Source: Clostridiales bacterium
GTDB lineage: Bacteria > Bacillota > Clostridia > Christensenellales > Borkfalkiaceae
Assembly: GCA_015069495.1 (NCBI GenBank)
Contig: SVIN01000020.1
Location: 1-32,702, forward strand
DNA length: 32,702 nt
Direction: 5' to 3'
Positions 3,227 to 29,346 of this stretch are shown here, one piece after another (the stretch's first letter is position 1; the number at the start of each line of letters is the position of its first letter). Below the pieces are notes generated by a model, which was not told where the DNA came from, searched no databases, and saw nothing but the letters and a program-made list of their open reading frames with translations. Made by a program: the position numbers and the translations under genes.

Positions 3227-3236
3227 TTTTATACTC

Positions 3237-3581
3237 CTAATCATTTTTTTCTATTATATATGAAGCATTTCGCTTTTTATTCGTTTCACTGATACATATC
3301 CCCAGCAAATCCTCACCGTGTCGGTAATATTTGCATTGAAAGCAACCATCCTCTTTCGATTGCCCTTCATATCCCGCGCAAGCGTCCTGCATTTGCGTCA
3401 CAAAAGGATAACCGTCCTTGGTATATTGAGGATGGACAAGAAAGTCGGGATAGATGGGAATGGGTTCATTGAACGGGCCATAGCGTTCTTTTTCGTCATA
3501 ATAACCATAGTGAATTTCAAACGTTTCACCATATACGGTCATTATTTTGTATAAATCTCCCTCGCGTATTTTTTGGTTCAT
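3237..3581 (-). CDS. Small soluble protein with Cys cluster, unknown function
   Basis: A 114-residue protein starting at ATG 3581 (MNQKIREGDLYKIM), with AAAAGGAGT upstream. The longer frame to 3659 would include the promoter and is rejected. There is no signal peptide or membrane segment. It is rich in Tyr and acidic residues and has a Cys cluster in its second half (DACAGYEG, then GCFQCKYY and GICISE) that could bind a metal. I do not recognise the family. Its TAG stop overlaps the ribosome site of the following surface protein gene, so the two are translationally linked. Promoter 3643-3671 with a CcpA/LacI-like operator suggests control by carbon source. Confidence 0.75.
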   Translation of the reverse strand: MNQKIREGDLYKIMTVYGETFEIHYGYYDEKERYGPFNEPIPIYPDFLVHPQYTKDGYPFVTQMQDACAGYEGQSKEDGCFQCKYYRHGEDLLGICISETNKKRNASYIIEKND

Positions 3582-12138: not shown

Positions 12139-13554
12139 TTACATGAATTCAACAAGAACAGCTTCACCCGCTTCCAAATGAATCCCCAAATGCTTCGTAT
12201 TCATGGTAGAAGTTTTACCGCGCTGAATAATCTTCATTTCCTGCGCGTCGTTCAAATCAAGAACAACGTCCTGCGCGCCTGTATGTTGATAATTCACCAC
12301 GTACAAAACCGTTCGTTTTTCGTATTCGAAACAACCAACCAAAGCATCACCGCGAATCCCTTTCAGCTGGTGGAATTCGTTGCCCTCAATCACCATAGAG
12401 TTGCCTTCAAATTCCGCCTTAATCGAATCGGACGGTAAAATACCTACGTTGTACGCATTCATCAAAATCTCGTCTACCGCTTCGATTTGCACGTTCATTT
12501 TTTGCGCGTAGTAATACCATTCGTTTACGTTACCGACCGAGCCAAACAAACTGTTTCTGGTGAAATCGTACGTACCGTTAGGCGCGTAAGCAAAGTGCAA
12601 GGGTTGGAAGCCCAAGAAATACTGAATGCCCTTTGCCCCGCACGCAAGCGAGGTGTTTACGTTCCAAATCAACTGACCTTCCGTAGGGTAAGCTTCAGGC
12701 AAGGATTCAAATTCAATCCCCGCGTCGTTCCATTGACCGCCCGCCTGAATGAATGCCCAATAAGGAATACCATAGTCTTCTGCCATACTCTTGATGATTG
12801 CCAAGTTATTGAAATAGCCTTTATAACTCTTGAAATCCCATACGTAGTGATCCCACGAGATATATTTTCCGTTCCCTTCGCGGAAGTATCTGCCAACATA
12901 TTCTTCATACTCTATGTCTTCCGTACCCGAAGTATACTTCAAGGGACGTTCTTCCCATCTCGGCAACATATTGACGTAGGTAGAATATTTATTGTCAAAT
13001 TCTTCGTTGATGACTTTGTTGACTTTACCGATATATTCAATCTGTTCGTAGTACGGTTCGTCTTTGGAATAGAAACCGACAAAGGATTTATATCCTGCAA
13101 ATTCGGCAACTTGCTCCTTAATTTTATCCTCATTCAACGCCGAATAACCATGGGTCATACTCGTCACAGCGTAGTCGTTTACGTAATAACCAATGTTGTA
13201 TTTCTCCGCAAGCGTTAATACCTTTTTGATACTTTCACGCGCTTGAGGATAGCTTTCGGGGCAGTAAGTAAACAAGTTTATCCCTGCATCCGCAATCATC
13301 TTGATATAATATTCATCGGTGAAGTTGGGCAACGTGTTCCCGTTCTTAGACGAGTTAGGGGTATAAGGACCAAAATACAAGCCAACAGGCATGACATCCT
13401 TACCGCCGATAATATCAAAGGAGTAGGTGTTTACCACGCGATCAGGGTAAACGGTGTCATATTCGTTGGAAGTTTTATTCTTTTTACATCCTGCAAAGGC
13501 CACCGAAGAAAGAGTTAAGGTCGCCGCAAGAATACAGCTTATTTTCTTTCTCAT
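12139..13554 (-). CDS. Lipoprotein TIM-barrel glycoside-hydrolase-like protein (paralogue 1)
   Basis: A 471-residue protein with lipobox AFAGC (Cys23). The fold looks like a clan GH-A (beta/alpha)8 barrel: SKDEP (Asp165-Glu166) at the expected end of strand 4, ISWDHY (Asp235), and LACGAKGIQYFLGF near the end of the barrel. A C-terminal beta-sandwich begins LVGCFEYE and ends LEAGEAVLVEF. The same landmarks occur in the proteins at 18613 and 24953, so the three are paralogues. The acid/base Glu of DEP is conserved; no second Glu is obvious and the S-x-D Asp is a candidate. Last gene of the long operon; its start overlaps the previous stop (ATGA). Confidence 0.75.
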   Translation of the reverse strand: MRKKISCILAATLTLSSVAFAGCKKNKTSNEYDTVYPDRVVNTYSFDIIGGKDVMPVGLYFGPYTPNSSKNGNTLPNFTDEYYIKMIADAGINLFTYCPESYPQARESIKKVLTLAEKYNIGYYVNDYAVTSMTHGYSALNEDKIKEQVAEFAGYKSFVGFYSKDEPYYEQIEYIGKVNKVINEEFDNKYSTYVNMLPRWEERPLKYTSGTEDIEYEEYVGRYFREGNGKYISWDHYVWDFKSYKGYFNNLAIIKSMAEDYGIPYWAFIQAGGQWNDAGIEFESLPEAYPTEGQLIWNVNTSLACGAKGIQYFLGFQPLHFAYAPNGTYDFTRNSLFGSVGNVNEWYYYAQKMNVQIEAVDEILMNAYNVGILPSDSIKAEFEGNSMVIEGNEFHQLKGIRGDALVGCFEYEKRTVLYVVNYQHTGAQDVVLDLNDAQEMKIIQRGKTSTMNTKHLGIHLEAGEAVLVEFM

Positions 13555-15203
13555 TCCTCTTTCCCTCCTTTCTTCATCATCAACGCCCCGCCTACCAACA
13601 GCAAAAAGTATGCCGAGGCAATGGAAGCGGTGCCCTTACAACCTTCTTTCTTCTCCGCAGGGGGATCCGCTTCGTACAGCGTTTCCGCGCGGTTATTCCA
13701 TCTGTCTACATAAACGAAATCATCCTGTTCGGGAAACTTACTGGACACAAAATCCACCTCGACAAGATTTGCGTTCACATCTGTATTTTCCATCTTTAAG
13801 TTGTCAAGCCAGAAGTTTGCGCAATAGGAATCCAAGCCTTGACTCATATTATTTTGCACGTAATTGAAGTCATCGCCGTAACCCCAAATCTGCACGTAAC
13901 CCAAAGGCGTATAACCAAGGTTATAATCAAACAGCTTTTGATAACGATTGACGGGTTCACCCTCGTATTTTGAAAAGACTTGCAATAGCCCGTCCTTCAT
14001 TTCCACCTTAAGGTTTACCGTGCGTTCTTTCCCTTCGCCGTCTACCCCGTTTTCTACCGCGAAAAAGTTTTTATCCCCCGACACTGAAGTCGTTTTCAAG
14101 GTCGCGTAATTGTTGAGCAAAGAACAGCTCATCCCAATCGCCCTGCCGTTTTGATAAACAGGCATCATGAAGAAGAACAACGATTGCGCAACTGCCACGG
14201 ACGAGTTGGTAACAACCGACGAACAGCCAATGGATACCCCCATCCAGTTGGTAGCGGGCGTAATCACGTTTCCCTCATCATCCAACACCGCTTGGCGTTG
14301 AATATGCGGAATATCGTAGGTCATGGTGAAGTTGGAATATTCCTGTCGCGTTGAAATATACCCAATCGCCGTAACGTTGTTAAATTTCAATACGCCGTTT
14401 TCACAAACAACGCTTTGCGGAGAATAATACCCCCCGCTTCCCCCTTCCGAATACAGCAACGCACTGTTAAAACCGTCCGAAAAGGTTTCGGTGAAGTTGG
14501 AATTGGCAGGTGTATCATAGGTTGCCGCGCGAATTTCTGCATTGTAAATTTCCACCGACGAAGGCGCGCTTTGACCGAACCCGAAATAACCGTTGGTAAG
14601 CACGCGTTTTGCGTTGTCGTGATTCAGCATAGAATCGCCATTGACCGACAACTGCATACTGCCCACAGAATAGACGTCAAAATCAATCGTCAATTCCGTT
14701 CCATACGCGTAGGCAGTTGCCGAAGTATACACCGTGCCGACATCTTCGCCTGCAAAGTTTTCCACTTTCACACCGATTTCCCCGCCCATATCGTAAAGGC
14801 AGATGGCGGATGCGGTATTCGCCTGCGAATACGGACGGCTTAACCCGAAGGCAATATAAAATTCCCCGTCTAAAACGTCCGTTATTTTCACAGTCAACCG
14901 ACCGTTGACACAAGTGTCAATACCCATATCACGCAAATCGTTTGCAAGCACCGTACTGACGATTTGACTGTCCTTGCCCGTTTTGCTTTTTTCAAAGATA
15001 ATCTTCCCTTCCTCGTGGGAAATATCACGCGTATATTCCCATTTTTGCTTGGAAAGCTGTTCTTTGTACATTTCCTCGGTAACGACTTTTTGTTCGGATT
15101 TCCCCGCGCTTGCGGTCACGGTAGGCAAAACGCCTACCATACCGCCTAAGCAAACGGCTGTCCCCGCCAAAAGCGCGATCCCGTTTTTTATTCTTTTCTT
15201 CAT
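13551..15203 (-). CDS. Surface protein with two LamG/ConA-like domains and Cys-type C-terminal anchor
   Basis: A 550-residue protein. The signal peptide covers about residues 1-33 (ends TVTASAGK). Two jelly-roll domains follow (about 55-225 and 235-495) with strand patterns of concanavalin-like lectins, for example LTVKITDVLDGEFYIAFGL and GLLQVFSKYEGEPV. The C-terminus is KKEGCKG, a hydrophobic helix, then MKKGGKEE; it matches the ends of the proteins at 812 and 21431. Likely a glycan-binding protein held at the cell surface beside the substrate-binding protein. AGGCGG precedes the ATG. The substrate is not deducible. Confidence 0.78.
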   Translation of the reverse strand: MKKRIKNGIALLAGTAVCLGGMVGVLPTVTASAGKSEQKVVTEEMYKEQLSKQKWEYTRDISHEEGKIIFEKSKTGKDSQIVSTVLANDLRDMGIDTCVNGRLTVKITDVLDGEFYIAFGLSRPYSQANTASAICLYDMGGEIGVKVENFAGEDVGTVYTSATAYAYGTELTIDFDVYSVGSMQLSVNGDSMLNHDNAKRVLTNGYFGFGQSAPSSVEIYNAEIRAATYDTPANSNFTETFSDGFNSALLYSEGGSGGYYSPQSVVCENGVLKFNNVTAIGYISTRQEYSNFTMTYDIPHIQRQAVLDDEGNVITPATNWMGVSIGCSSVVTNSSVAVAQSLFFFMMPVYQNGRAIGMSCSLLNNYATLKTTSVSGDKNFFAVENGVDGEGKERTVNLKVEMKDGLLQVFSKYEGEPVNRYQKLFDYNLGYTPLGYVQIWGYGDDFNYVQNNMSQGLDSYCANFWLDNLKMENTDVNANLVEVDFVSSKFPEQDDFVYVDRWNNRAETLYEADPPAEKKEGCKGTASIASAYFLLLVGGALMMKKGGKEE

Positions 15204-15227: not shown

Positions 15228-16796
15228 TTACTTCAAACCTGCGTTGCTCAAATAGGTATTCCAATTATCGTTGAGCGAGGTGGTTACTTCACCCCAAATC
15301 GCATCTGCCGATTTTGCGCCTGTTTGTTGGCTCATCGCGCTGACAAAGTTCACCGCGCCGTATTCCATTGCGCCGCCGCGGGTGAATGCAAGGCTTCTTC
15401 TGCCTTCTACAATACCAACGGTTGTATACTTATTGGCAAAGTCGCTCATTGTCTTTTCGAAGGTAGACCATACTGCGGTATTGGGCGCATTTTCTGTCTT
15501 ATCAAAAGTAAGAGGCAAGGTCATGTGCGTTTTGTCGTTCATAATCATTTGCGCTTCATCCGAGAAGTAGAACGCCGCAAACTTCTTCGCACCTTCTTTC
15601 GCGGACGCATAGTTCGGGATACAAATTGCGTGCTGGCTGTAGTTTTCCCAAATCAAGGTTCTTGCTTCGTAAATAGTGTTCCAATCGCTTTCGCAAATGG
15701 TGAAATCACCGATTGCATACGTGCCGTCTGCCTGTTTAATATCATCAAGGGAAACTTCACCGTCCACCACCTTATCCACAGCGTCAATCACAGCGGAAAG
15801 TTTCGAATCACTGTTTACGTCCGTCAATTTATCTACGATTGAGCTAATAACAGGGGTGGGCATAATCGAGAAGTTTTTATACTCTGCATTGGACGTTTTC
15901 ATTTCGTTGTTCATCCAAGCGCCGTTACACATCATAACCGCTCTGCCGTTCAAGAACTTCGTCTGTTGCGTAGTGTGGTCTGCGGAGTTAGACCCTGCAA
16001 CAACGTACTGCGAATCCAATAAGGTTTCCATCACTGTCAACGCCTGATATCTGCCGTCTTTTTTGGTCAAAACCTCCAAGTTAGGTTTTTCATTTTCACT
16101 GCCCAAAACGGACGCCTCTTGTCCCAATGTCGAGAAGGTATTGTAGTAGTAGTCCAAACCATCGTATTGCACCTGCCACGTGTTGTAGAGATATTCCCAA
16201 TACCCGCCGCTAAAATAGATGAATGGTTTGCAGTTTTGTGCATTGTAATCAGTGTAAAGATCCATAACGAGTCTTCTCAGCTCATCGGTCGTCTTAGGGA
16301 TTGCATACCCTTCCATCAAATCTTCATTGTATACAAGACCGCACACACCGCCGCCATACGGAAGGGTATAATATTTTCCATCGTAGAATTTATAATTATT
16401 CAACAAGCTCGTCGAGATTTTTTCAGAAACCTTCTTACTTTCTCCTGCGTTTACCATATTCAAAACGTCGTCAAGGGGTTCTAAATATTGGAACAATGCA
16501 TTGGAAGGCACGGGTTCAAAATACAAATCCACTGTGTTGTATTTTGCCCCGTTCATGATTTTATCGGGGATTGCCGTGTTGGTCGTTTCCGAGGTTATCT
16601 CTACGTTATATTCGGGGTATTTCGCCTCGAAAGCTTCCTCGATTTTTTGAATAAATTCGTCGCCCATACCCGAACGCCAAAATGTGATTTCGATATCGGT
16701 CGCAGAGTCGTTTGCGCCCTTGTTGTTACAACCTGCAGCGCATACCGTAGTCAATGCCATTACGCTCATCAGCGCCAAACTAATTATTTTTCTCAT
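15228..16796 (-). CDS. ABC transporter sugar-binding lipoprotein (family 1)
   Basis: A 522-residue protein starting at ATG 16796 (MRKIISLALMSVMAL), with AAGGAG upstream; the frame to 16832 is rejected. The lipobox is VCAAGC. The mature protein has features of extracellular solute-binding family 1 (MalE/UgpB-like): ITFWRSGMGDEF at the start, PYGGGVCGLVYNEDLM, FLNGRAVMMCNGAWM in the middle, and a C-terminal helical part. It is longer than MalE (about 400), as is usual for oligosaccharide-binding versions in Clostridia. It delivers sugars to the two permeases encoded just upstream. Confidence 0.92.
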   Translation of the reverse strand: MRKIISLALMSVMALTTVCAAGCNNKGANDSATDIEITFWRSGMGDEFIQKIEEAFEAKYPEYNVEITSETTNTAIPDKIMNGAKYNTVDLYFEPVPSNALFQYLEPLDDVLNMVNAGESKKVSEKISTSLLNNYKFYDGKYYTLPYGGGVCGLVYNEDLMEGYAIPKTTDELRRLVMDLYTDYNAQNCKPFIYFSGGYWEYLYNTWQVQYDGLDYYYNTFSTLGQEASVLGSENEKPNLEVLTKKDGRYQALTVMETLLDSQYVVAGSNSADHTTQQTKFLNGRAVMMCNGAWMNNEMKTSNAEYKNFSIMPTPVISSIVDKLTDVNSDSKLSAVIDAVDKVVDGEVSLDDIKQADGTYAIGDFTICESDWNTIYEARTLIWENYSQHAICIPNYASAKEGAKKFAAFYFSDEAQMIMNDKTHMTLPLTFDKTENAPNTAVWSTFEKTMSDFANKYTTVGIVEGRRSLAFTRGGAMEYGAVNFVSAMSQQTGAKSADAIWGEVTTSLNDNWNTYLSNAGLK

Positions 16797-16812
16797 AAGA
16801 TTTTTCTCCTTT

Positions 16813-17676
16813 TTATTCTTTAATCCCGCCAAGGGAAATATTACTCATCATAATATTGTTGAAACAGATAAATACAATCAACGTCGGGATGGACGAAACC
16901 ATACACGCAGCAAACAACAAGTCGCGTCTTACGTAGTATTTCATGTCGAAATCAAACAAGTAAATACCAACCGACAGCGTGGGAAGTTTAGGTAAATACA
17001 GCAACTGCGCATCGTAACTGTTCCACGCGCCCATCCACGAAAGCAAGAACAACGCGCCAAGCATTGTCATACTCTGCGGTAACATTACCCTAAAGAATAC
17101 CTGCCAATCGTTTGCGCCGTCGATATACGCTGCCTCAGCGTAACTCCACGATAGGTTTTTGAAAAACGCCGCGAAATACATGTACATCGCACCAAGCCCG
17201 CCAAACGCCGTGACGACAAACAGATAATTGTTGATTAAACCCAAGTTATATATCAATTTATACATTGCCCCGCCTGAACTGTAAATAGGCAGCAACATCA
17301 CCACAAAGGATACGTAATAATAGGCTTTCGCACCGAAAAAGTTGTATTTCGTCGTTACGTAGGACAGCATAGCGCAAAGCAAAATCCCACCCGCTGCGGG
17401 TACTACTGAGAAGTAAATACTGTTAAACGTCATCTCCAAAAAGCTGGTTTTGTTGGGGGTGAACAGGGTAAAGACTTCTATAAAGTTTTTCCACTGCGCC
17501 ACCTCGGGAAACGCAAACGGTTTCATAATGTTTTCATCGTGCGTTTTCAAGGATGCGACTACACCCCAAAAGAAAATATACAAATAGGACAATGCAAATG
17601 CCGTAAACAATATAAAAATGATGGTATAAATGATTTTTTCGGCGGTAGATTTTCTGTCTAAAAATTTAATTTTCAT
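16813..17676 (-). CDS. CUT1 ABC sugar transporter permease (MalG-like)
   Basis: A 287-residue protein starting at ATG 17676 (MKIKFLDRK), with AAGGGGG upstream; residues up to 17802 overlap the other permease gene and are not used. Six membrane segments are visible. The EAA loop is present (EAAYIDGANDWQVFFRVMLP near 185-205), which docks the ATPase. It ends FNNIMMSNISLGGIKE, close to the usual MalG-type ending. Pairs with the permease at 17690 and the binding protein at 15228. No ATPase gene is in the window, so a shared MsmX/UgpC-type ATPase encoded elsewhere is expected. Confidence 0.92.
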   Translation of the reverse strand: MKIKFLDRKSTAEKIIYTIIFILFTAFALSYLYIFFWGVVASLKTHDENIMKPFAFPEVAQWKNFIEVFTLFTPNKTSFLEMTFNSIYFSVVPAAGGILLCAMLSYVTTKYNFFGAKAYYYVSFVVMLLPIYSSGGAMYKLIYNLGLINNYLFVVTAFGGLGAMYMYFAAFFKNLSWSYAEAAYIDGANDWQVFFRVMLPQSMTMLGALFLLSWMGAWNSYDAQLLYLPKLPTLSVGIYLFDFDMKYYVRRDLLFAACMVSSIPTLIVFICFNNIMMSNISLGGIKE

Positions 17677-19833: not shown

Positions 19834-21441
19834 TTAATTTTTAATGTAAAGTACGCTGATTGCGCAATCTTCCGTTGCGGTCAGCGAAGTGATAATGTCG
19901 CCTTTCGCGTTCATGACTTTATAGGTATAGCCATCCTTCGCAAATTGCACAAAGTCTACCGCTTCCCCTGCCACCGCTTTCACGATGGTTTCCGTACCCG
20001 ATGCGGATACGGTGATTTTGATATATTCTTTCTTCGCTGTACCAATCGTCAAATCCTGCGTAACGGGGGTTGTGAAATCATACTCTGCCCCGTTTACAAT
20101 CCAGTATTCGTCTTCTGCCAACGCATAAGGCGCGGTCAACACAACACCGTCTTTTACAGCGTATGTTTCCTTTGCACGTCCGTAGGATTTTACCGTCACA
20201 AAATGCATGCCATTGTAGTTGACGTCACAATCCACGGTATTGTCCATCACCTTTGTTTTGCCAAGCATGATATCGCGGACGGATTGAATTTCTTCCGCGG
20301 TCACACCTGCATCCAACAATAAGTTTTCCGTCTTTTCCGCAAGCGTTTCTCCTTCAAACGTTTTCACGTAGGTAAGCAGGTTGTTGATATTGCCAAGCAA
20401 AGCGTCTTGGTGTTTTTCCCAACTGGAGATGTAGGCAAATGCACTGAGTAAATATTCGTTGACAATCGTCTGTTCCTCCACACCAAGCAAGCCGTTCAGC
20501 AAAGCCACGGCTGTCCCCGTACGGTCTCTGCCAACCGAACAGTGCATCACGATGGGATAATTATCCTTGTTTGCAAAGGTAGAGAAGATGGTCTTAATCG
20601 CTGCTTTCGATTCTGCCGTATTGATACCGTTTGCGTAAAGAGGCGCGGGCGTCGCGTTGACATAGTTGATTTCTAAAGGGTTGGGTTTGCCTTCGCCGAC
20701 CGCCCTCAAATCCAAATCTGTTTTAATACCAAGTTCCATCGCGGTTGCTTTACCCGTTTCGGTTACATCGTCCAAACGCGCCGTACGATAAATCAAACCT
20801 TGCATCGTTTTACCATTGGGGGTTGCGTAACCGCCCACGTCGCGGGTGTTAGATACCCCATCGATATCCACTGTGCGCGCACCCGCTTTGGTTGTAAATT
20901 CGAAGATATCCGAACGAACCTGCGCAGTGCCGTTGTTTGCAATAACCTGCCAGTAGTAATCCGTACCTGAATACAAGGTGTTGCCAAGGTTTACCGAGGT
21001 GGATTCTACCGTTTCCGAATACACCACCTGCGTAAAGTTTTTGTCCAACGCCACGTTGACGGTGTAGTTATCCGCCTTGCTTGCATACTGCCAACGCAAA
21101 ACGTTTCCAACGGGCGCGAAATCATCGCAAACGTTATAACATCTAAGAAGTTCTTCCGTGTCAGGAAGGAGTCCCGTTTTTGAAAATTCTTGCATTTCAG
21201 GGCGGAAATAGTAATATTTTGCGATTTCTGCCTGTGTGGGGTTGGTCAACGCCAAAACGCTTTCAATCCCCGAATGCACCACGCTGACCGTCGCACCGTC
21301 ATACGGAGTCAATGCCGTGATTTCGCTGCTGAATTTCACCACGTCCATAGCTTCTGCGTTGCCTTGAATATTTGCGCAAACGGTAACGGACGTAATCGCC
21401 GCCAATGCCGTTGCGATACTGATTTTCCAATTATTCTTCAT
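19834..21441 (-). CDS. Secreted tyrosine-phosphatase-like protein with Fn3-like domain
   Basis: A 535-residue protein starting at ATG 21441 (MKNNWKISIA), with AAGGAGG upstream; it overlaps the previous gene by 11 bases. The signal peptide covers about residues 1-31. An Fn3-like domain lies near 105-187. A Y_phosphatase3-type domain spans 190-405, with SNTRDVGGY at 197-205 and the active-site loop HCSVGRDRTG (Cys301, Arg307). A beta-rich tail completes it. All key residues of a Cys-based phosphatase are present. In this locus it may dephosphorylate a sugar phosphate or phosphate ester outside the cell rather than a protein. No membrane anchor is seen. Confidence 0.82.
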   Translation of the reverse strand: MKNNWKISIATALAAITSVTVCANIQGNAEAMDVVKFSSEITALTPYDGATVSVVHSGIESVLALTNPTQAEIAKYYYFRPEMQEFSKTGLLPDTEELLRCYNVCDDFAPVGNVLRWQYASKADNYTVNVALDKNFTQVVYSETVESTSVNLGNTLYSGTDYYWQVIANNGTAQVRSDIFEFTTKAGARTVDIDGVSNTRDVGGYATPNGKTMQGLIYRTARLDDVTETGKATAMELGIKTDLDLRAVGEGKPNPLEINYVNATPAPLYANGINTAESKAAIKTIFSTFANKDNYPIVMHCSVGRDRTGTAVALLNGLLGVEEQTIVNEYLLSAFAYISSWEKHQDALLGNINNLLTYVKTFEGETLAEKTENLLLDAGVTAEEIQSVRDIMLGKTKVMDNTVDCDVNYNGMHFVTVKSYGRAKETYAVKDGVVLTAPYALAEDEYWIVNGAEYDFTTPVTQDLTIGTAKKEYIKITVSASGTETIVKAVAGEAVDFVQFAKDGYTYKVMNAKGDIITSLTATEDCAISVLYIKN

Positions 21442-24400
21442 CGGATTCCTCCTTTTTACGCATAAGAGCGCATGCGCCTGCCGCACCGATCATCATCGTC
21501 AAACCGCCTGTAAGCAACGAACCCTTACAGCCTTTTTTGCCTTCATCGTTGCTGTCATTGTTGCTGTCCGCGCTGTCATTGTTGTTCGTGCTGTTTCCGC
21601 TGTTGTCACCGCCCGTGGTATAGGAGACTTCCAATTCGATATCTTCCGTAACGATGACAAAGTCGGTGGCGTCGCCATTCTGTTTTATAACCGTCGTTTT
21701 GCCTTCGATATCAAATATGCTAAGGTCAAGCTGTGCACCGTAAGTTACGTAAAGAATCTGCGTTTCACCTGCGAGGGTTACGGTAACTTTGTAATAAACG
21801 TCGCTCTTGATAAATTTCGCCGTCAATGCAACGTCGCTTGTGACGATATCATTGTCAAAATCCCACTTTGTATCGCCAACGTACCATCCGTCGAAGGTAT
21901 ATTGATATTTTTCCGTAGCATCCTTGGTAGGATCTGCGGGCTTTTCAATCTTTGCGCCATATACGTATTCGGTTGCGCTGGTACCGTCAAAGGTAACCGT
22001 ATATCTCTTTTCAGCCTTCACGGTCACACGAACGGTTTCCGTAACGTAGTTGCCGTTGGCATCCGTTGCGGTGACAAGACAGTTCCAAACGCCTGCGTTC
22101 ATTTTACCATCGCTGAATGCACCGTCGTCCCAAATAAATTCGGGTGTAAGTTCCGTCCAACCGTCACTCGCTTTCGCGTCAATTTCAGGCACTGCGTCCC
22201 CTTCGTTCAAGACGATTTCCTGCTTGCTGTAAATGGTCAAAATCGGGTCAAAAATATCCCCTTGCTTATAATCTTTCACCTTGGAGCTTCTGCCTGCGCT
22301 GTATACCAAGATACCGCCGCCAATGTAAGTACCTGCGGGGGTAATATCGTTGATTTCCAAAATCTTTGCGCCGCTGCCGCCAACCGTGATCGAATACTTA
22401 CCATCCGTTTCTTTTACGGAAATTTCAAGTTGCATTTCCACACCGTTTGCAATACCGAAATCCGCTTCACCGAGCAAGATATGTTCGTCACCGCTCCCGC
22501 CCATGGTTGCATCGTAAACGTATACTTTGTTACCGATAAAGAAGATACGCCAGCCATCCCAAAGATTGGTGCTGTTAAGATATACCGCAAGACCACCGTA
22601 GGGCATGTAATTGAGAATCGCTTCATTGGTGGAATATACCATCTTCAAGCTGACGTCGCCATCAAAGCCTTCTACCGCCGCCAACATGCCTTCCGCACCG
22701 AGTTCATAACGGCTTTCCCCGATGATATCGGATACGGTTACGTAATCTTCTTCGGTGGGCATGGTTTCGCATTCGCCTACTACCCAAGTACCGCCAATCA
22801 ACGAAAGGGTGATTTCGGGCAACCAATAATTTTCAAAAGGCGTTTCCGCTTCCACTTTCATCACCGTGATGGGATATTCTTCCGTGGGGTAAAGCGCCGC
22901 CGTCGGCAAATCAATCGCCATGTGGTTCGCGCCATGCGAATACTTAATGCTTGCGCCTTCCATATCGCTGAGTTTTACACCGTTTACGGTGATACCCGCC
23001 ATCGTAATTGCGCTGTTGGAGTTGCTAACCGCGTCGCCAAGCATTTCCACATTAAAATCCAAAAGGGTCAATCGTGTACCCGCTTGCGTGAAAATATTAT
23101 TATTCCAAGTATTTACTTCCGTAAACTCTGCAATGGGCTGAGGAGCGCTCCATTGACCGTTTTTCAGCTTCAGTTCGATATCTTCCGCAAATTCGTACAC
23201 CGTAGAATTGTCACCGCCGATTGTAAAAATCGCGCCTGCGGGAATTGCAAGTGTGGAATTTGCTTCGGGCAGGGTTGCAAAACGCAGGACTATGCCGTTT
23301 TCCCAACCAATCCATCTACCGCAAACAAAGGAAAGATTGTTCGTATCTACGGGTTGACCGTTCAAGGTCATCTTGGCATACACGTCGCTGTAATCGCCGT
23401 TCAAGTCACCGCCTACAAGCCCGTCGATTTGCATGAACGTACAGTACGTTTCGCTGTAGAAGAAGTTGTTCCAAGTTTGATTTATCTTCGTAAGCGTTAC
23501 TTCTTCCGTTTCCACGGGTTCGGGATCCACGGGAGGTTGAGGGTCAACGGGAGGTTGCGTGTTGTCCGCTACCCATGCCGTACCGTTGAAGGTAAAGGTC
23601 AAATCCGCAGGAATTTCATATATATTGGTATCTTCCCCGCCAATGCTAAATCTTGCCCCCGCGGGGAATACAAGCGTTGCACCCGCTTCGGGGGTGGTGA
23701 CCATACGCATCATAAGACCGCCGTTTGCGCCTACCCAATAAGGACAGATGAAAGAGAAATTTGCCGTATCCAAGGGCTGATTGTTCAATTTTGCCTTTGC
23801 AAGCAAATCGCTGTAATCGCCATCCAACGCGCCATTGCCGATTCCACCGTCAAAATGGAAGAAGGTGCAATAGGTATTTTCATAGAAATAGTTATTCCAC
23901 GTCGAATTGATATTGGTAAACGTTACCGACTTTGCGGGGGTGAAAACTTCCCACGCTGTACCGTTGAATTTCAAACAGATATCATTGGTCAATTGGTATA
24001 CGTTGGTATCCGCGCCACCAACGTCAAAGGTTGCGCCCGCCTTGATAATCAATTCATCCCCTACCGTGGGCGCGGTTGCGCTGAACATAATTATGTAATT
24101 GCATGCTTGGTCAGGTCCCGCAATATAAGAAGCCGAGCAAAAATCAAAATACGAAGCCCCGCCGTTTATGGTCGTGTTCGCCTTGATATCCGACCAATCG
24201 TCGCCTTGGGTATAATAGCCGCTGGTCTGCACACCGTCAAAATGCAATACGGTATAGTGCATACCGTTAGCCATAATTTCCGTATTATTATTCCAAGAAG
24301 TATTGATATTCGTAAAGGTTACGGCGGTGGTAGCCACTTCAGGCTTTGTATTGATGATGATTTCATCAATGTAATATGCGGTCGCGCCACTCTTTACACG

Positions 24401-24892
24401 CGCACCTACCGCAATAGGGTTGGAGAGATAGCCGTTCGCATCCTTCATTTGCGCAATCGCCGCGGAGGAAAGGGTTATTTCCACCCAACTGGACATATCC
24501 ACTACATCGTTTTGTGCCCAATTGCCCTCCACCAATGCAGCTCTGAAACTGTCGTTTGCGCCATATTCGGGGGAGTAAATTCTTACAACGATACTCTCGA
24601 CCGCGCTTGCTTTCACCTGTGGAGCGCTTACCATAACGAATGCCGTTGATTGAGCGTTTTCATTGATTTTCAACACCGCGCCGTTTGCGCCTGCAATCCC
24701 TTCCACGTATTCAAACGTATTACCGCCATATTGACCTAACACGATTTGACCTTCATTGGTAAATTCCGTTTCAAAGGTCGTCCCTTCCGCGCTTGCTTTA
24801 TAGGAAATCGCCTGAGCACCGCCCGCAGCAAAGCACATTGCGCTTACCGCTGTCAATACGGATAATGCGATTTTTCTTTTCATCTTTCTCAT
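21431..24892 (-). CDS. Giant surface protein with four WNN repeats, LamG-like and InlB-like domains
   Basis: A 1153-residue protein starting at ATG 24892 with AAGGAG eight bases upstream. Signal peptide about 1-35; N-terminal jelly-roll (38-190) like that of the protein at 27322; four repeats of about 115-125 residues starting FTNINTSWNN (about 195), FTNINSTWNN (about 323), LTKINQTWNN (about 459) and FTEVNTWNNN (about 582); a PQPPVDPEP linker between the second and third; a LamG-like domain (about 715-870); an Ig-like domain (875-955); an InlB/Flg_new-type repeat (957-1025); a Ser/Asn/Asp-rich spacer; and the ending KKGCKG, helix, RKKEESDEE. Probably a multivalent glycan-capturing scaffold. 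The WNN repeat family is not one I can name. Confidence 0.82.
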   Translation of the reverse strand: MRKMKRKIALSVLTAVSAMCFAAGGAQAISYKASAEGTTFETEFTNEGQIVLGQYGGNTFEYVEGIAGANGAVLKINENAQSTAFVMVSAPQVKASAVESIVVRIYSPEYGANDSFRAALVEGNWAQNDVVDMSSWVEITLSSAAIAQMKDANGYLSNPIAVGARVKSGATAYYIDEIIINTKPEVATTAVTFTNINTSWNNNTEIMANGMHYTVLHFDGVQTSGYYTQGDDWSDIKANTTINGGASYFDFCSASYIAGPDQACNYIIMFSATAPTVGDELIIKAGATFDVGGADTNVYQLTNDICLKFNGTAWEVFTPAKSVTFTNINSTWNNYFYENTYCTFFHFDGGIGNGALDGDYSDLLAKAKLNNQPLDTANFSFICPYWVGANGGLMMRMVTTPEAGATLVFPAGARFSIGGEDTNIYEIPADLTFTFNGTAWVADNTQPPVDPQPPVDPEPVETEEVTLTKINQTWNNFFYSETYCTFMQIDGLVGGDLNGDYSDVYAKMTLNGQPVDTNNLSFVCGRWIGWENGIVLRFATLPEANSTLAIPAGAIFTIGGDNSTVYEFAEDIELKLKNGQWSAPQPIAEFTEVNTWNNNIFTQAGTRLTLLDFNVEMLGDAVSNSNSAITMAGITVNGVKLSDMEGASIKYSHGANHMAIDLPTAALYPTEEYPITVMKVEAETPFENYWLPEITLSLIGGTWVVGECETMPTEEDYVTVSDIIGESRYELGAEGMLAAVEGFDGDVSLKMVYSTNEAILNYMPYGGLAVYLNSTNLWDGWRIFFIGNKVYVYDATMGGSGDEHILLGEADFGIANGVEMQLEISVKETDGKYSITVGGSGAKILEINDITPAGTYIGGGILVYSAGRSSKVKDYKQGDIFDPILTIYSKQEIVLNEGDAVPEIDAKASDGWTELTPEFIWDDGAFSDGKMNAGVWNCLVTATDANGNYVTETVRVTVKAEKRYTVTFDGTSATEYVYGAKIEKPADPTKDATEKYQYTFDGWYVGDTKWDFDNDIVTSDVALTAKFIKSDVYYKVTVTLAGETQILYVTYGAQLDLSIFDIEGKTTVIKQNGDATDFVIVTEDIELEVSYTTGGDNSGNSTNNNDSADSNNDSNDEGKKGCKGSLLTGGLTMMIGAAGACALMRKKEESDEE

Positions 24893-24914
24893 GATTTTTT
24901 CTCCTTAATCTCTC

Positions 24915-24944
24915 GTATAGCCACCTTGCGATAGGTGGCTATAC
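24915..24944 (-). other. Intergenic 11-bp stem-loop within the operon
   Basis: GTATAGCCACC (24915-24925) and GGTGGCTATAC (24934-24944) form a perfect 11-bp stem with an 8-base loop in the only sizeable gap of the operon. On the minus strand it is followed by GAGAGATTAAGGAG rather than a T run, so it is not a standard terminator. It may protect or process the mRNA upstream of the 1153-residue surface protein gene. Confidence 0.75.
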
Positions 24945-24952
24945 ATTGTTAC

Positions 24953-27163
24953 TTAACCAACGATAAGCAACCAATCTTCCAACGAACCAAAGTTATCCTT
25001 GTCAAGCCCCGCAATCCAATCGTTGAGCGAGCCGTTATTATCGGTCGATTCCGTATACGGCAAAGACAGCACAAGTAACCGTTTCATCTGGTCTGCCGTG
25101 TAACCGCCGTTAGGATCGTTGTACGCGCGGTATGCTACCTGCGCAATCGAACGCGCATTGTCATTTCCGTTTGCGTAAAACTTCTTCTGTGTGCCGTCTG
25201 CGAACGTGACTTTTACAAACGCACGGCCTTCAAAGATTGTATTCAACTGTTCATCGGGTACTTTGGTCAATACCCCCGAAATCGTCCAAGCGTTTCCGCT
25301 GTAACCAAACTTTTCCTTGGAAATATCAATGGTCAACGAGCCTTCTTCCGCAGAAGAAATCACCGTCACACCATAATGCAAGTTGTCTGCACCGACTGCG
25401 CTTTCCACAGCCGACAACGAGTTTTTATCCACGTCTGCTGTCCATCGAATCGAATTTTCATAATCATTTGCGATACGAACAGACGCGCCTACGCGCATAT
25501 CCATATCCAATGTAACCGCTGTCAAAGTCATATCCGAGCTTACGTTGCTAACGATATATCCCGCAGGGTAAACTTTACCGTTCGTTTCCCAGCCGAGGAA
25601 GAGTTCACCGTCCACAGTTTTTTCAGGAAGCACAAAACTTCCGCCCTTCGCAACCACCGTATTTTCCACCGCGCCGTTCGCATTCATGGTCACCGTATAT
25701 CCGTCTTCCGCCTTAAAAGGTACGACAAAGATACCTTCTCCCGAAGACATGTTCAACGTCAAGCTGTTACCGCTGAGCGTTTCATCCGTGTAACCTGTAC
25801 CGCGGTAAACGCGGACCTTGTCCGTATTGCCGTAAAAGTTCATCGTTACCGACGAGGTCGTGTTTCTCGTCGAATCGTTTGCGTTTGCGAGATAGTAACC
25901 GTTATACCCCATATCGTCTTCGAAACAGCCGACAAGGGTGGTTTCCGTGGACGTTACCGCGTTCAAGTTCCCCTTCGTTAAATTCTGTTTTTGGCGTTCA
26001 GAATAACTGTTCGCATAAGCGATTTCATTGGCAAACAAAGCATTGGTCAACTGACCGTAGCAATCTTTATTGTTATTGTTTGCGGCAGCAAATCTGTCGT
26101 AAGCCGTCCCCTTGGAAATGATTACCCCGTTCCAATCGAAGTTCATATACGCTTCGTCCATGGCATCAATGTTTTTGATTGCATTTTGCACGTATGTATA
26201 ATTTGCCGTAGGCGTACCGTCTGCTTTCACCATTGCTTCGGACAAGAATGCATCTTCCAAAGCGGGCGTTTCATAACAGAAGTTGATGATTTGTTTCGCA
26301 CCGAACGCCATGAAAATGCTGTATTGCATATCCACGTCCGCCTGCCCTTCCAAATTGCGGTAGCTGGGTTTATACGTGCTGTTTTGCGCAGGATTCATCG
26401 TCTGCGCGTAATAACTTACGTCCGCGCCATGCTGTTTCGCAATCACCGCCGTCGTCGCCAAGTCGGACAAGAAGGATGTGGTGATATAGTTTTTCGTTCC
26501 GCCATATACACGGCGCAAGGGATAACTGTCTACCGAGAGCATTTTAGGTCCCGTTAAATGATCCAAAACGGTGTCCGCGTAATATTCTACGTACGAAGCA
26601 TAATCGTTTGTAAAAGTTTCCGACCAATAATAATTGGGCATCAAGTTTGCGAAGAACTGTTTCCCTGCAAACGCGCCTTCAAAGGCTTCGATATAGGTTG
26701 CGATTTGGTCGATTTGTACCGTGTTTATGGGCTCATCCCATATATCCGTACCAATAACACAATCACGGCTCCAACCGCTGACGTAGCAACCAAGTGCCTC
26801 CGACCAACTCCCGATGGCATCAGGGTTTGAGCCTTTGTTTGCATCCAGCAAAATCTTCATACCGTTTTGCTCAAAGTCGTCGAAAATTTGACCCAATCCG
26901 CTCCAATTCGTTACGGTATTGTTACCATTGAGACAGATGAAATCCAACCCCGAGTTTTGAAGCATTGCCACTTCCGCAGGGTTTGTAAGGTCGGGCGCAA
27001 AGAACCCGCCGACCATAAAGTTGGCAGTAGAAGCATACTGCGAATAATCACGAATGACATCCATTTTCCCATCCGCGCTTGCCGTTTGTATATTCACCGT
27101 AGGCGTAAGAAACGCCGCCGCGAACGCCAACGCAAACATTTTATTTAATATATTCTTTTTCAC
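24953..27163 (-). CDS. Secreted TIM-barrel glycoside-hydrolase-like protein (paralogue 3)
   Basis: A 736-residue protein starting at GTG 27163, decided by AAGGAGG six bases upstream and by the signal peptide that then begins VKKNILNKMFALAF and ends TASA. The barrel spans about 45-390, with IWDEP (Asp143-Glu144), LSVDSYPLRR (Asp212), TTAVIAKQHG (237-246) and FCYETP (Glu298). A beta domain runs from LVGCFEDD to SSGEGIFVVPF. An InlB-like repeat follows (about 495-560), then a C-terminal domain with VRIANDYENSIRWT (about 570-725) shared with the protein at 27322. No membrane anchor, so it is released or wall-associated. Likely the extracellular depolymerase of the locus. Confidence 0.75.
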   Translation of the reverse strand: MKKNILNKMFALAFAAAFLTPTVNIQTASADGKMDVIRDYSQYASTANFMVGGFFAPDLTNPAEVAMLQNSGLDFICLNGNNTVTNWSGLGQIFDDFEQNGMKILLDANKGSNPDAIGSWSEALGCYVSGWSRDCVIGTDIWDEPINTVQIDQIATYIEAFEGAFAGKQFFANLMPNYYWSETFTNDYASYVEYYADTVLDHLTGPKMLSVDSYPLRRVYGGTKNYITTSFLSDLATTAVIAKQHGADVSYYAQTMNPAQNSTYKPSYRNLEGQADVDMQYSIFMAFGAKQIINFCYETPALEDAFLSEAMVKADGTPTANYTYVQNAIKNIDAMDEAYMNFDWNGVIISKGTAYDRFAAANNNNKDCYGQLTNALFANEIAYANSYSERQKQNLTKGNLNAVTSTETTLVGCFEDDMGYNGYYLANANDSTRNTTSSVTMNFYGNTDKVRVYRGTGYTDETLSGNSLTLNMSSGEGIFVVPFKAEDGYTVTMNANGAVENTVVAKGGSFVLPEKTVDGELFLGWETNGKVYPAGYIVSNVSSDMTLTAVTLDMDMRVGASVRIANDYENSIRWTADVDKNSLSAVESAVGADNLHYGVTVISSAEEGSLTIDISKEKFGYSGNAWTISGVLTKVPDEQLNTIFEGRAFVKVTFADGTQKKFYANGNDNARSIAQVAYRAYNDPNGGYTADQMKRLLVLSLPYTESTDNNGSLNDWIAGLDKDNFGSLEDWLLIVG

Positions 27164-27169
27164 GTTGCG

Positions 27170-27177
27170 CCTCCTTA
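27170..27177 (-). promoter_or_regulatory. Ribosome site overlapping the small-peptide stop codon
   Basis: The minus-strand TAAGGAGG contains both the TAA stop of the 44-residue peptide gene (27175-27177) and the Shine-Dalgarno sequence of the GTG-started secreted barrel protein. This ties translation of the two genes together and fixes the GTG start. Confidence 0.85.
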
Positions 27178-27309
27178 CCATGCATCCCCGCCAGGTACCC
27201 AATCTCTATAATCGCCGTCGTTATCCACGATAGATGCGGTAACGATATCTTCTGCCGTCCACGCAATCATGCGGATATCAGGCGTTTCATAAGGCATTTT
27301 TTCTTTCAT
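27175..27309 (-). CDS. 44-residue acidic peptide, unknown function
   Basis: A short complete gene: ATG 27309, AGAGGTG five bases upstream, TAA at 27175-27177. The product starts MKEKMPYETPDIRMIAWTAE and ends in the acidic, Trp-rich tail DGDYRDWVPGGDAW. It has no Cys, no signal peptide and no membrane segment. It sits 12 bases after the preceding stop and its own stop forms part of the next ribosome site, strong evidence that it is translated. The layout Tyr-Glu-x-Pro, then a short hydrophobic/acidic stretch ending DIVTAS, then an Asp/Trp/Gly tail reminds me of small YEKPE...DVI.TSG proteins common in gut Clostridia; that link is recollection, not a search result. Confidence 0.75.
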   Translation of the reverse strand: MKEKMPYETPDIRMIAWTAEDIVTASIVDNDGDYRDWVPGGDAW

Positions 27310-27321
27310 TTCACACCTCTA

Positions 27322-29346
27322 TCAAACCCCTGCGATTTCTTCAAGAATCGAAAGCTGCATACCCGTATAATCCCCTGATGCAATCGCGCGGCTTGCTACC
27401 TGCGCAATCGATCGAGTCGTATCGTTTGCCGTTGCATAAATTCTCTTGCTTACACCGTTAGAATATGTAATATCCACATACCCGCGAGCGGTAAATGCGG
27501 TGTTGTAATACTGCGAATTGATATCAATCAACACGCCCGTATATTGGCTGTTTTCCACTTTCCAATTTTTCGCAGTGATATCAAAGTTCTCACCGAAACC
27601 GTCCGCGGAAAGTTCCGTACCGAACACGAAACGGCCTTGTGTCCAATATGCGATATTGTTAAAGCCTTCCGCATCGATATTCGTCGTCCAACGGATCCCG
27701 CTGGTTTCCGCGCTTGCAATACGGATAGACGCACCGTTTTCCGTGGTGAATGCACCCCAAAGCGCGATGAACGTCAAGCCCGTGCCGTCCGTCGTGTATT
27801 CACCTGCAGGAAGGAAAGTTTGCACCAACGCGCCCTCTGCCATTCTATTTTCAACGTAGCCGAGCAATACTTTACCCTCTCTTGTATATTCGGGCAAGGT
27901 ATAAGTAACAGTACCGTCGCCATTGTCATAAGTCGTCAAGGTTTCTGCTTCGTAAGGATCCGATACCTTAATCACGGTATAGCTTACAATTGCAGGATTT
28001 GTCCAAGTTGTACCATTAAAAATAAGGATTACGTCACTTGTAATTTCATAGGTGTTGCTATCCGTACCGCCGATATTGAAGGCCGCGCCTGCAGGAAGAA
28101 CAATCTTCGTACCAGCCGCGGGCATTTGTGCCAAACGCATCATGATACCGCCGCTTGCACCTACCCAATTAGGGCATCTAAACGAAACAACCGATATATC
28201 TGCGGGCTGACCGTTTACCGTCATTTTTGCAAGTAAATCACTGAAATCCGCATCCAAACCGCCGTTGCCGCTGATACCGCCGTCAAAGTGCAAGAACGTG
28301 CAATATGCATCATCGTAAGCATAGTTATTCCACGTCGAGTTGATATTGGTATACGTTACAGAGAGCATTTCAGGTTCTACAGGGGGCGTATACGGTTGCC
28401 AAACCGTACCGTTTAATTGCAAATACATATCCGCAGCAAATTCATAAACGTTTGCATCGGAACTGCCGTTTGTAAATCTTGCACCTGCGGGAATGCAGAA
28501 AATCGCACCTGATGCAGGAAGGGTTACCCAACGCATAACGATACTGTCCGCAGCGCCGTCAAGCCAAGCACGGCAAATAAAAGAAAGGTTTGCCGAATCT
28601 ATGGGCTGACCGTCAATCGTCGCCTTTGCAAGCACGTCGGTATAGTTACCGTCGATGTTACCCGTTACAATACCGCCGCTAAAATTCAAAATTGAGCAAT
28701 AGGTATCGCTGAATGCATAGTTATTCCAAAAAGCATTTATATCCGTAAAGGCTACCTTCGTCGTCTCTTTCATATTAACGGTAATACTGTCAATATAGAA
28801 ATAATCCGAAACCGTACCCTTATCACGCAAGCCAAACGCAAACGAACCCAAGTTACCATCCGCGCCCGTAATCGTTGCGATGGGCAAAGCAACGTCGTAC
28901 CACGTAGATAAATCGTGCGCGCCTACACCGCCCATCGAGCCGCTGATATTGTTAATTCTTAACTCATCCGCTGAAGTATAATCAGGGGAATATACTCTTG
29001 CAACCACGCTTTCTACCATAGACGCCGCAATTTTCGACGCGGTGAAATCAATATTTATATAGGGTGCACCGCCAGTTACTAAACTCGCAGCTTTTACAAC
29101 TGCACCGTTGCAACCTGCGGGCAAGTCTTCTTCCTCACCGTTTACAAATGTATAAGCAAACGCAGTGTTTCCCGTGTAATACCCTACAACAAATTGACCG
29201 TTGTTGGTAAATTCATTTTCCAACGCCGTGGTTTCCGCATTTGCACGAATTGCCGATATCACGCCGCTCACTCCCGCAAACGCAGCGCCAAATCCTAACG
29301 CAATTGCCAATGCAACGTTCGTGAATCCTTTCTTAAATACTTTCAT
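27322..29346 (-). CDS. Secreted protein with two WNN repeats and C-terminal IRWT domain
   Basis: A 674-residue protein starting at ATG 29346 (MKVFKKGFTN), with AAGGAGG upstream; the in-frame extension to 29382 lacks a ribosome site. Signal peptide to about residue 37 (IRANAETT). The N-terminal jelly-roll (40-192) matches the 1153-residue protein (EFTNNGQFVVGYYTGN against EFTNEGQIVLGQYGGN). Two WNN repeats begin FTDINAFWNN (about 200) and YTNINSTWNN (about 334). An InlB-like repeat (about 450-525) and the C-terminal domain with IRIASAETSGIRWT (about 530-674) follow. No anchor, so probably released or wall-bound. First gene of the long operon. Confidence 0.8.
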   Translation of the reverse strand: MKVFKKGFTNVALAIALGFGAAFAGVSGVISAIRANAETTALENEFTNNGQFVVGYYTGNTAFAYTFVNGEEEDLPAGCNGAVVKAASLVTGGAPYINIDFTASKIAASMVESVVARVYSPDYTSADELRINNISGSMGGVGAHDLSTWYDVALPIATITGADGNLGSFAFGLRDKGTVSDYFYIDSITVNMKETTKVAFTDINAFWNNYAFSDTYCSILNFSGGIVTGNIDGNYTDVLAKATIDGQPIDSANLSFICRAWLDGAADSIVMRWVTLPASGAIFCIPAGARFTNGSSDANVYEFAADMYLQLNGTVWQPYTPPVEPEMLSVTYTNINSTWNNYAYDDAYCTFLHFDGGISGNGGLDADFSDLLAKMTVNGQPADISVVSFRCPNWVGASGGIMMRLAQMPAAGTKIVLPAGAAFNIGGTDSNTYEITSDVILIFNGTTWTNPAIVSYTVIKVSDPYEAETLTTYDNGDGTVTYTLPEYTREGKVLLGYVENRMAEGALVQTFLPAGEYTTDGTGLTFIALWGAFTTENGASIRIASAETSGIRWTTNIDAEGFNNIAYWTQGRFVFGTELSADGFGENFDITAKNWKVENSQYTGVLIDINSQYYNTAFTARGYVDITYSNGVSKRIYATANDTTRSIAQVASRAIASGDYTGMQLSILEEIAGV

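Follow-up and report, generated by a model that had tools for sequence, protein, structure and literature searches.

The closest described counterparts of the proteins considered here are of several kinds: the beta-sandwich carbohydrate-binding modules (CBMs) catalogued in CAZy, the immunoglobulin (Ig)-like and other beta-sandwich domains of surface proteins such as the S-layer protein SbsC (4uic), the List-Bact repeats (PF09479), domain II of the phage baseplate wedge protein gp6 (PF21515) and, with respect to anchoring, the MYXO-CTERM tail (TIGR03901), for which a GCGC motif and a CPBP myxosortase are described (PMC11980579). We here describe the WNN repeat, which is encoded in positions 1 to 32,702 of contig SVIN01000020.1 (assembly GCA_015069495.1) from a Clostridiales bacterium of the GTDB family Borkfalkiaceae; this whole stretch of 32,702 nucleotides is referred to below as the window. 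The WNN repeats are best explained as a single lineage within an extensive and diverged family of ~115-residue beta-sandwich modules. We are confident that this module family is both unnamed and lineage-restricted, a conclusion much firmer than the proposal that the modules bind glycans.

A sequence-only reading of the window had counted six ~115-residue repeats in two proteins, and this count was confirmed. P1 (21431..24892, minus strand; 1153 aa) consists of an N-terminal domain, repeats P1R1 (23939..24331, minus; E 8.6e-48), P1R2 (23564..23932, minus), P1R3 (23138..23512, minus; identified by a profile match) and the divergent P1R4 (22724..23116, minus), an unmatched region, a List-Bact repeat and a cysteine-containing C-terminal tail. 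P2 (27322..29382, minus; 686 aa from a GTG start, or 674 aa from the ATG at 29346) has the same type of N-terminal domain, followed by P2R1 (28387..28767, minus) and P2R2 (27994..28371, minus), both recovered by profile match and modelled, and a GASIRI-type C-terminal domain. With the database size set to 5 million, BLASTP matched 10 of the 15 repeat pairs, all within the five close repeats, with identities of 34-63% and E values from 4e-11 to 3e-53, and reported no pair at E 10 between P1R4 and the other five. Held-out hidden Markov models (HMMs) scored the five close repeats at 101.6-172.4 bits against at most 19.9 bits for the best of 1000 shuffles each, and P1R4 at 16.8 bits against 10.2 bits for the best of 1000 shuffles. 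P1R4 was also recovered by the iterated profile described below at E 1.2e-10, with 0 reversed-sequence decoys. The proposed motifs held in part: WNN occurs in all six repeats, YCTF or YCSI in four and a PAGAxF or KAGATF ending in five, but exact GDYSD is found in just two; three others carry the variants GNYTD, DADFSD and DDWSD at that position, and P1R4 lacks it.

The repeats are not confined to these two proteins; the same genome has many more copies. The tight WNN class (class A) comprises nine copies in this genome, of which the window has five, contig C23 three and contig C29 one. These nine, together with one sequence from a second genome (G023), seeded an iterated search of 232 open frames, taken from stretches of the four genomes G000, G020, G023 and G027, which converged on 52 repeats in 17 proteins with 0 hits among reversed decoys. 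Profile-profile comparison linked class A to class C (96.6%, 116 columns), class E (96.1%, 78 columns) and class F (95.0%, 51 columns in the C-terminal part), whereas reversed and column-shuffled controls reached at most 2.7% and the unrelated N-terminal domain 0.3%. When G023 was left out, the corresponding values were 96.4%, 95.5% and 94.4%, and the match to class E fell to 46 columns. Classes B, D and Gx were considered as kin of class A and judged unconvincing (2%, 0.4% and 31%); two or more Gx-type repeats nevertheless joined the iterated set of 52. A further repeat type, NGxS[LV]xx[IW]N, gave 45 pattern hits in large proteins (stretches L048, L049, L052, L106-L111, L115-L118 and L123), and the profile of this INGxSLxxIN class matched class C with a probability of 71% and class A with 1%.

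The predicted fold of the repeats is domain-like. Over the 52 repeats, the glycine of the PAG motif is present in 50 and the isoleucine just ahead of it in 41; a tyrosine is kept in 38 of 47 and a C-terminal tryptophan in 33 of 35, a central position is aromatic in 75%, and WNN is conserved additionally within class A. P1R2 was predicted to form a discrete beta-sandwich (pLDDT 82, pTM 0.76), and in a model of the adjacent copies P2R1 and P2R2 the predicted order of elements is nearly identical. The tandem units and the predicted domain would thus agree with the description of a CBM as a contiguous, discretely folding domain; an absent match in VIA-align or Foldseek would not prove a new fold. 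Two cysteines, C21 and C62 of P1R2, the former where strand two begins and the latter just past strand three, are invariant in the seven sequences of subset A3 and could plausibly form a disulfide; P1R3 has both by eye, and P1R1 lacks the first. The modules might instead serve as structural Ig-like spacers or S-layer-like blocks that extend and rigidify surface proteins and bind no ligand. We regard this as the main rival to carbohydrate binding, though on balance a less likely one.

Searches of named families gave no convincing match. At E 10, the window proteins showed no Pfam match above chance level in their repeats, and the nine class A repeats yielded 0 CBM matches in Pfam; NCBIfam gave nothing relevant for the window proteins. 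Among the 52 repeats, a single one matched CBM_5_12, at only E 0.033, and no repeat reached the curated cut-off of a Pfam CBM family. It is very unlikely that the repeats are a diverged known CBM family missed by profile methods: the weak hits are single and not common to other members, and the nine class A repeats lack a CBM match in Pfam even at E 10. The most notable of the scattered matches was to Gp6_2nd (PF21515), the phage baseplate wedge domain, matched by four of the 52 repeats at E ≤0.1 (best 1.2e-4), with two of six whole relatives scanned passing the 27-bit cut-off (29.6 and 28.8 bits). The matches span only 32-40 of 66 positions around IPAGTQF and include none of the window repeats, and we treat this likeness, confined to the IPAGTQF region of a few repeats, as a short local match of 32-40 residues and not as membership. 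NCBIfam matches to AbnB (4e-4) and to a flavohemoprotein (9.6e-4), in one of the 52 repeats each, were taken as chance. No PDB sequence matched the repeats below E 0.03, and the profile matches at E 0.03 or worse (DsbA, superoxide dismutase and similar) were rejected. A literature search for the module and its motifs found no description.

The distribution of the module is narrow. Among 57 genomes of the genus, four were positive for class A at E 1e-4: this one and three others, at 4e-16, 4e-16 and 2.7e-5. Strong copies of the tight WNN class were seen in this genome only; in the order sample the sole positive genome of 396 was again the window's own. The superfamily profile (A5, E 1e-3) matched 14 of the 57 genus genomes, with 35 matches in the own genome when partial ones are counted; across the GTDB family it matched 42 of 251 genomes, spread over 6 of 18 genera, and in the phylum sample it matched the own genome alone (1/398). 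The own genome was likewise the only one matched at class level by the class E profile (1/391) and by the INGxSLxxIN type (1/148; two of its seven profile rows have mistyped ends). Pattern searches for the tight class returned 13 matches in a genome-contig collection and 62 in a viral-contig collection, with no relative among them, and P2 was not found in phage or plasmid collections. A class E scan of the genome-contig collection recovered a contig of a metagenome-assembled genome of the same genus (SVIW01000006.1, Clostridiales bacterium isolate SIG419); a Bifidobacterium stretch from the same scan was judged spurious, its frame reading by eye as an FtsX-like permease. Within these samples, the module family thus appears confined to one GTDB family of Clostridia, with the qualification that such counts mark the limits of sequence profiles and that more diverged relatives elsewhere are possible. 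Contigs C23 and C29 stop within repeat-bearing open frames, and copy numbers are therefore lower bounds.

Two architectures of repeat proteins recur. A survey covered 37 open frames that together bear 141 repeat matches; several of the frames are cut by contig ends. Of the 37, 11 end in a cysteine-containing tail, while 21 encode large proteins of 1,332-2,540 aa with 2-7 repeats each, 20 of these 21 without the tail. Some of the large proteins end in enzyme-like regions. A 1861-aa paralogue on C23 and a 2330-aa relative from genome G1272 end in a domain with YFExxNEP, NxHPY and TExG, motifs that are invariant over four aligned sequences (located by motif alignment at L009:14213-15715, L121:3498-5000, L009:1349-2515 and L009:2525-3793, all minus) and that presumably represent the glutamate pattern of clan GH-A. 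Profile matches of this domain are weak, to PslG (E 0.057) and, in one of the four members, to Glyco_hydro_cc (E 0.003); it may represent an undescribed glycosidase family. Seven other large proteins have a C-terminal region in common, of which five match DUF4434 (best E 2.7e-4; the single member whose row is shown scored 20.1 bits against a cut-off of 30), and one large repeat protein of this genome, on contig C44, has a GDSL lipase domain (E 7.3e-13) close to its end. A Pfam scan of nine C-terminal regions gave matches at E 0.01 for only two of them.

P1 and P2 also have an N-terminal domain in common with their paralogues (24350..24781 in P1 and 28771..29232 in P2, both minus). A search at E 1e-3 detected it in 4 of the 57 genomes of the genus, including one copy at G027:C14:91016-91498; it had no match among PDB sequences and was modelled with low confidence in the two-repeat P2 prediction. 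This domain ends in YIDSITV, as many jelly-roll modules do. One repeat subtype stays beside it in four proteins of this genome (97/97). A second recurring partner, the GASIRI...GIRW C-terminal domain of P2 (27325..27735, minus), has no Pfam match; a regular-expression search for GAS[VI]R[MI]...GIR[WF] placed it in P2 and in large repeat proteins on L009, L027, L048, L049, L052, L104, L106, L114 and L117, again without a Pfam match among the proteins scanned.

The presence of the module in both tail-bearing and enzyme-like proteins, together with the fixation of one subtype beside the N-terminal domain, is best accommodated by a CBM-like role. The earlier interpretation is partly supported, well for the module family but not for its ligand, and we put the chance that the modules act like CBMs at about even. 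We infer that the tailed proteins lie at the cell surface, that the fused regions are enzymatically active and that the modules bind glycans. In such a scheme, repeat strings in tail-anchored proteins such as P1 would hold complex glycans at the cell surface, repeats on large secreted enzymes would target these enzymes to the same glycans, and the adjoining transporter would import the resulting products. Many divergent tandem copies in tailed and tail-less proteins could also form cohesin/dockerin-like pairs, and the modules might then bind proteins, namely host mucins, other bacteria or cellulosome-like partners, in place of glycans; no partner module was identified, however, and Pfam scans found neither cohesin nor dockerin, leaving protein binding improbable.

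The tail of P1 reads GCKGS, a hydrophobic stretch and RKK (21434..21538, minus), and is not of the LPXTG type. A regular expression for C[GKSFT][SGM] followed by a hydrophobic stretch and an end rich in K/R was run on 547 open frames with a minimum length of 250 aa, counting shadow frames, and gave 40 hits, 20 of which were read by eye as true tails; besides P1, carriers include the ends of window frames 812-3244 and 13551-15203 and proteins on L009, L027, L048-L051, L109, L113, L115, L122 and L123. LPxTG/A was not found in the last 60 residues of the 547 frames, and sortase (PF04203) had no match in the own genome, which is 76% complete, as against 3 of 14 control genomes that were positive. 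Two CPBP protease matches (PF02517) in the own genome passed the cut-off; the family is also present in 11 of the 14 control genomes and hence is not specific. The P1 tail resembles the MYXO-CTERM system in its cysteine signature, hydrophobic stretch and basic end and in the CPBP proteases of the genome, and differs from it in a lysine-rich rather than arginine-rich end and in its phylum; in NCBIfam, P1 had no MYXO-CTERM match at E 1. A bolder reading, which we advance only tentatively and consider doubtful, is that of a glycan-recognition toolkit of one Clostridia family's own making, in which dozens of diversified, endemic beta-sandwich modules are common to giant secreted glycosidases of undescribed families and to surface receptors whose anchor is a cysteine tail that needs no sortase. 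Such a toolkit would be the Gram-positive equivalent of SusD/SusE combined with MYXO-CTERM.

The surrounding genes are compatible with a sugar-related setting. Between P2 and P1 lies a gene for a 749-aa protein (24953..27202, minus) with a List-Bact repeat just below cut-off and, both by eye alone, a GASVRI-type C-terminal domain and a TIM-barrel-like N-terminal part. Directly downstream of P1, and overlapping it, is a gene for a tyrosine-phosphatase-like protein (19834-21486, minus; PF13350, E 6.8e-35) with a signal peptide read by eye. The single strand, the gaps (119 bp between P2 and the 749-aa gene, 60 bp between that gene and P1) and the overlap with the next gene are compatible with the one operon that had been proposed; a scan for promoters and terminators did not outperform shuffled sequence and could not decide the matter. 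The genes of both proteins described as secreted were found on the minus strand, and their signal peptides were read by eye. The List-Bact domain of P1 lies at 21815..22003 (minus; PF09479, E 4.8e-9); a sequence search with the P1 region 22223-22711 gave no lead, its sole match being 7q58 SAKe6BR at E 0.0044. A 915-aa open frame antisense to P1 (21902-24649, plus) is probably a by-product of codon use.

Elsewhere in the window are an SBP_bac_1 extracellular solute-binding lipoprotein of the neighbouring ABC transporter (15228..16832, minus; E 1.2e-16), three GDSL proteins, of which two pass the cut-off and one falls below it, as well as an alpha/beta hydrolase and an enzyme of trehalase/GH63-like type. 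The designation CUT1 for the transporter is that of the sequence-only reading. Relatives of its two permeases were found in 9 of the 31 stretches with repeats and in 2 of the 20 controls (Fisher one-sided p 0.10), a trend that agrees with a carbohydrate role and is not significant. The controls were picked by hand from six of the genomes, the own genome excluded; among the 31 repeat stretches, L105 showed no repeat with the local profile, a number of others are short contigs, and an almost identical gene end occurs in both L025 and L026.

Should the modules bind glycans, they would constitute a CBM-like family without a name, of which some Clostridia have tens of copies per genome, would help to explain how these small genomes capture complex sugars and could furnish new polysaccharide probes. 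Pfam mostly fails to recognise the fused C-terminal regions, and undescribed glycosidase families may be among them. The features that surprise are the copy number, the narrow range, the largely Pfam-unrecognised enzyme-like partners and a non-LPXTG tail in a genome without a sortase match. List-Bact repeats are surface repeats that occur in the same proteins as the module, yet they belong to a separate sequence family, with one copy in P1 beside the WNN repeats. The beta-sandwich CBMs of CAZy differ from the module in that it has no convincing Pfam CBM match and is restricted, in these samples, to one bacterial family. The module resembles them as a discrete predicted beta-sandwich of ~115 aa that occurs in tandem and beside enzyme-like regions, and its locus also encodes a solute-binding protein, proteins of esterase type and a trehalase/GH63-like enzyme. 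The modules represent a new family of a familiar kind, the multi-copy extracellular beta-sandwich module.

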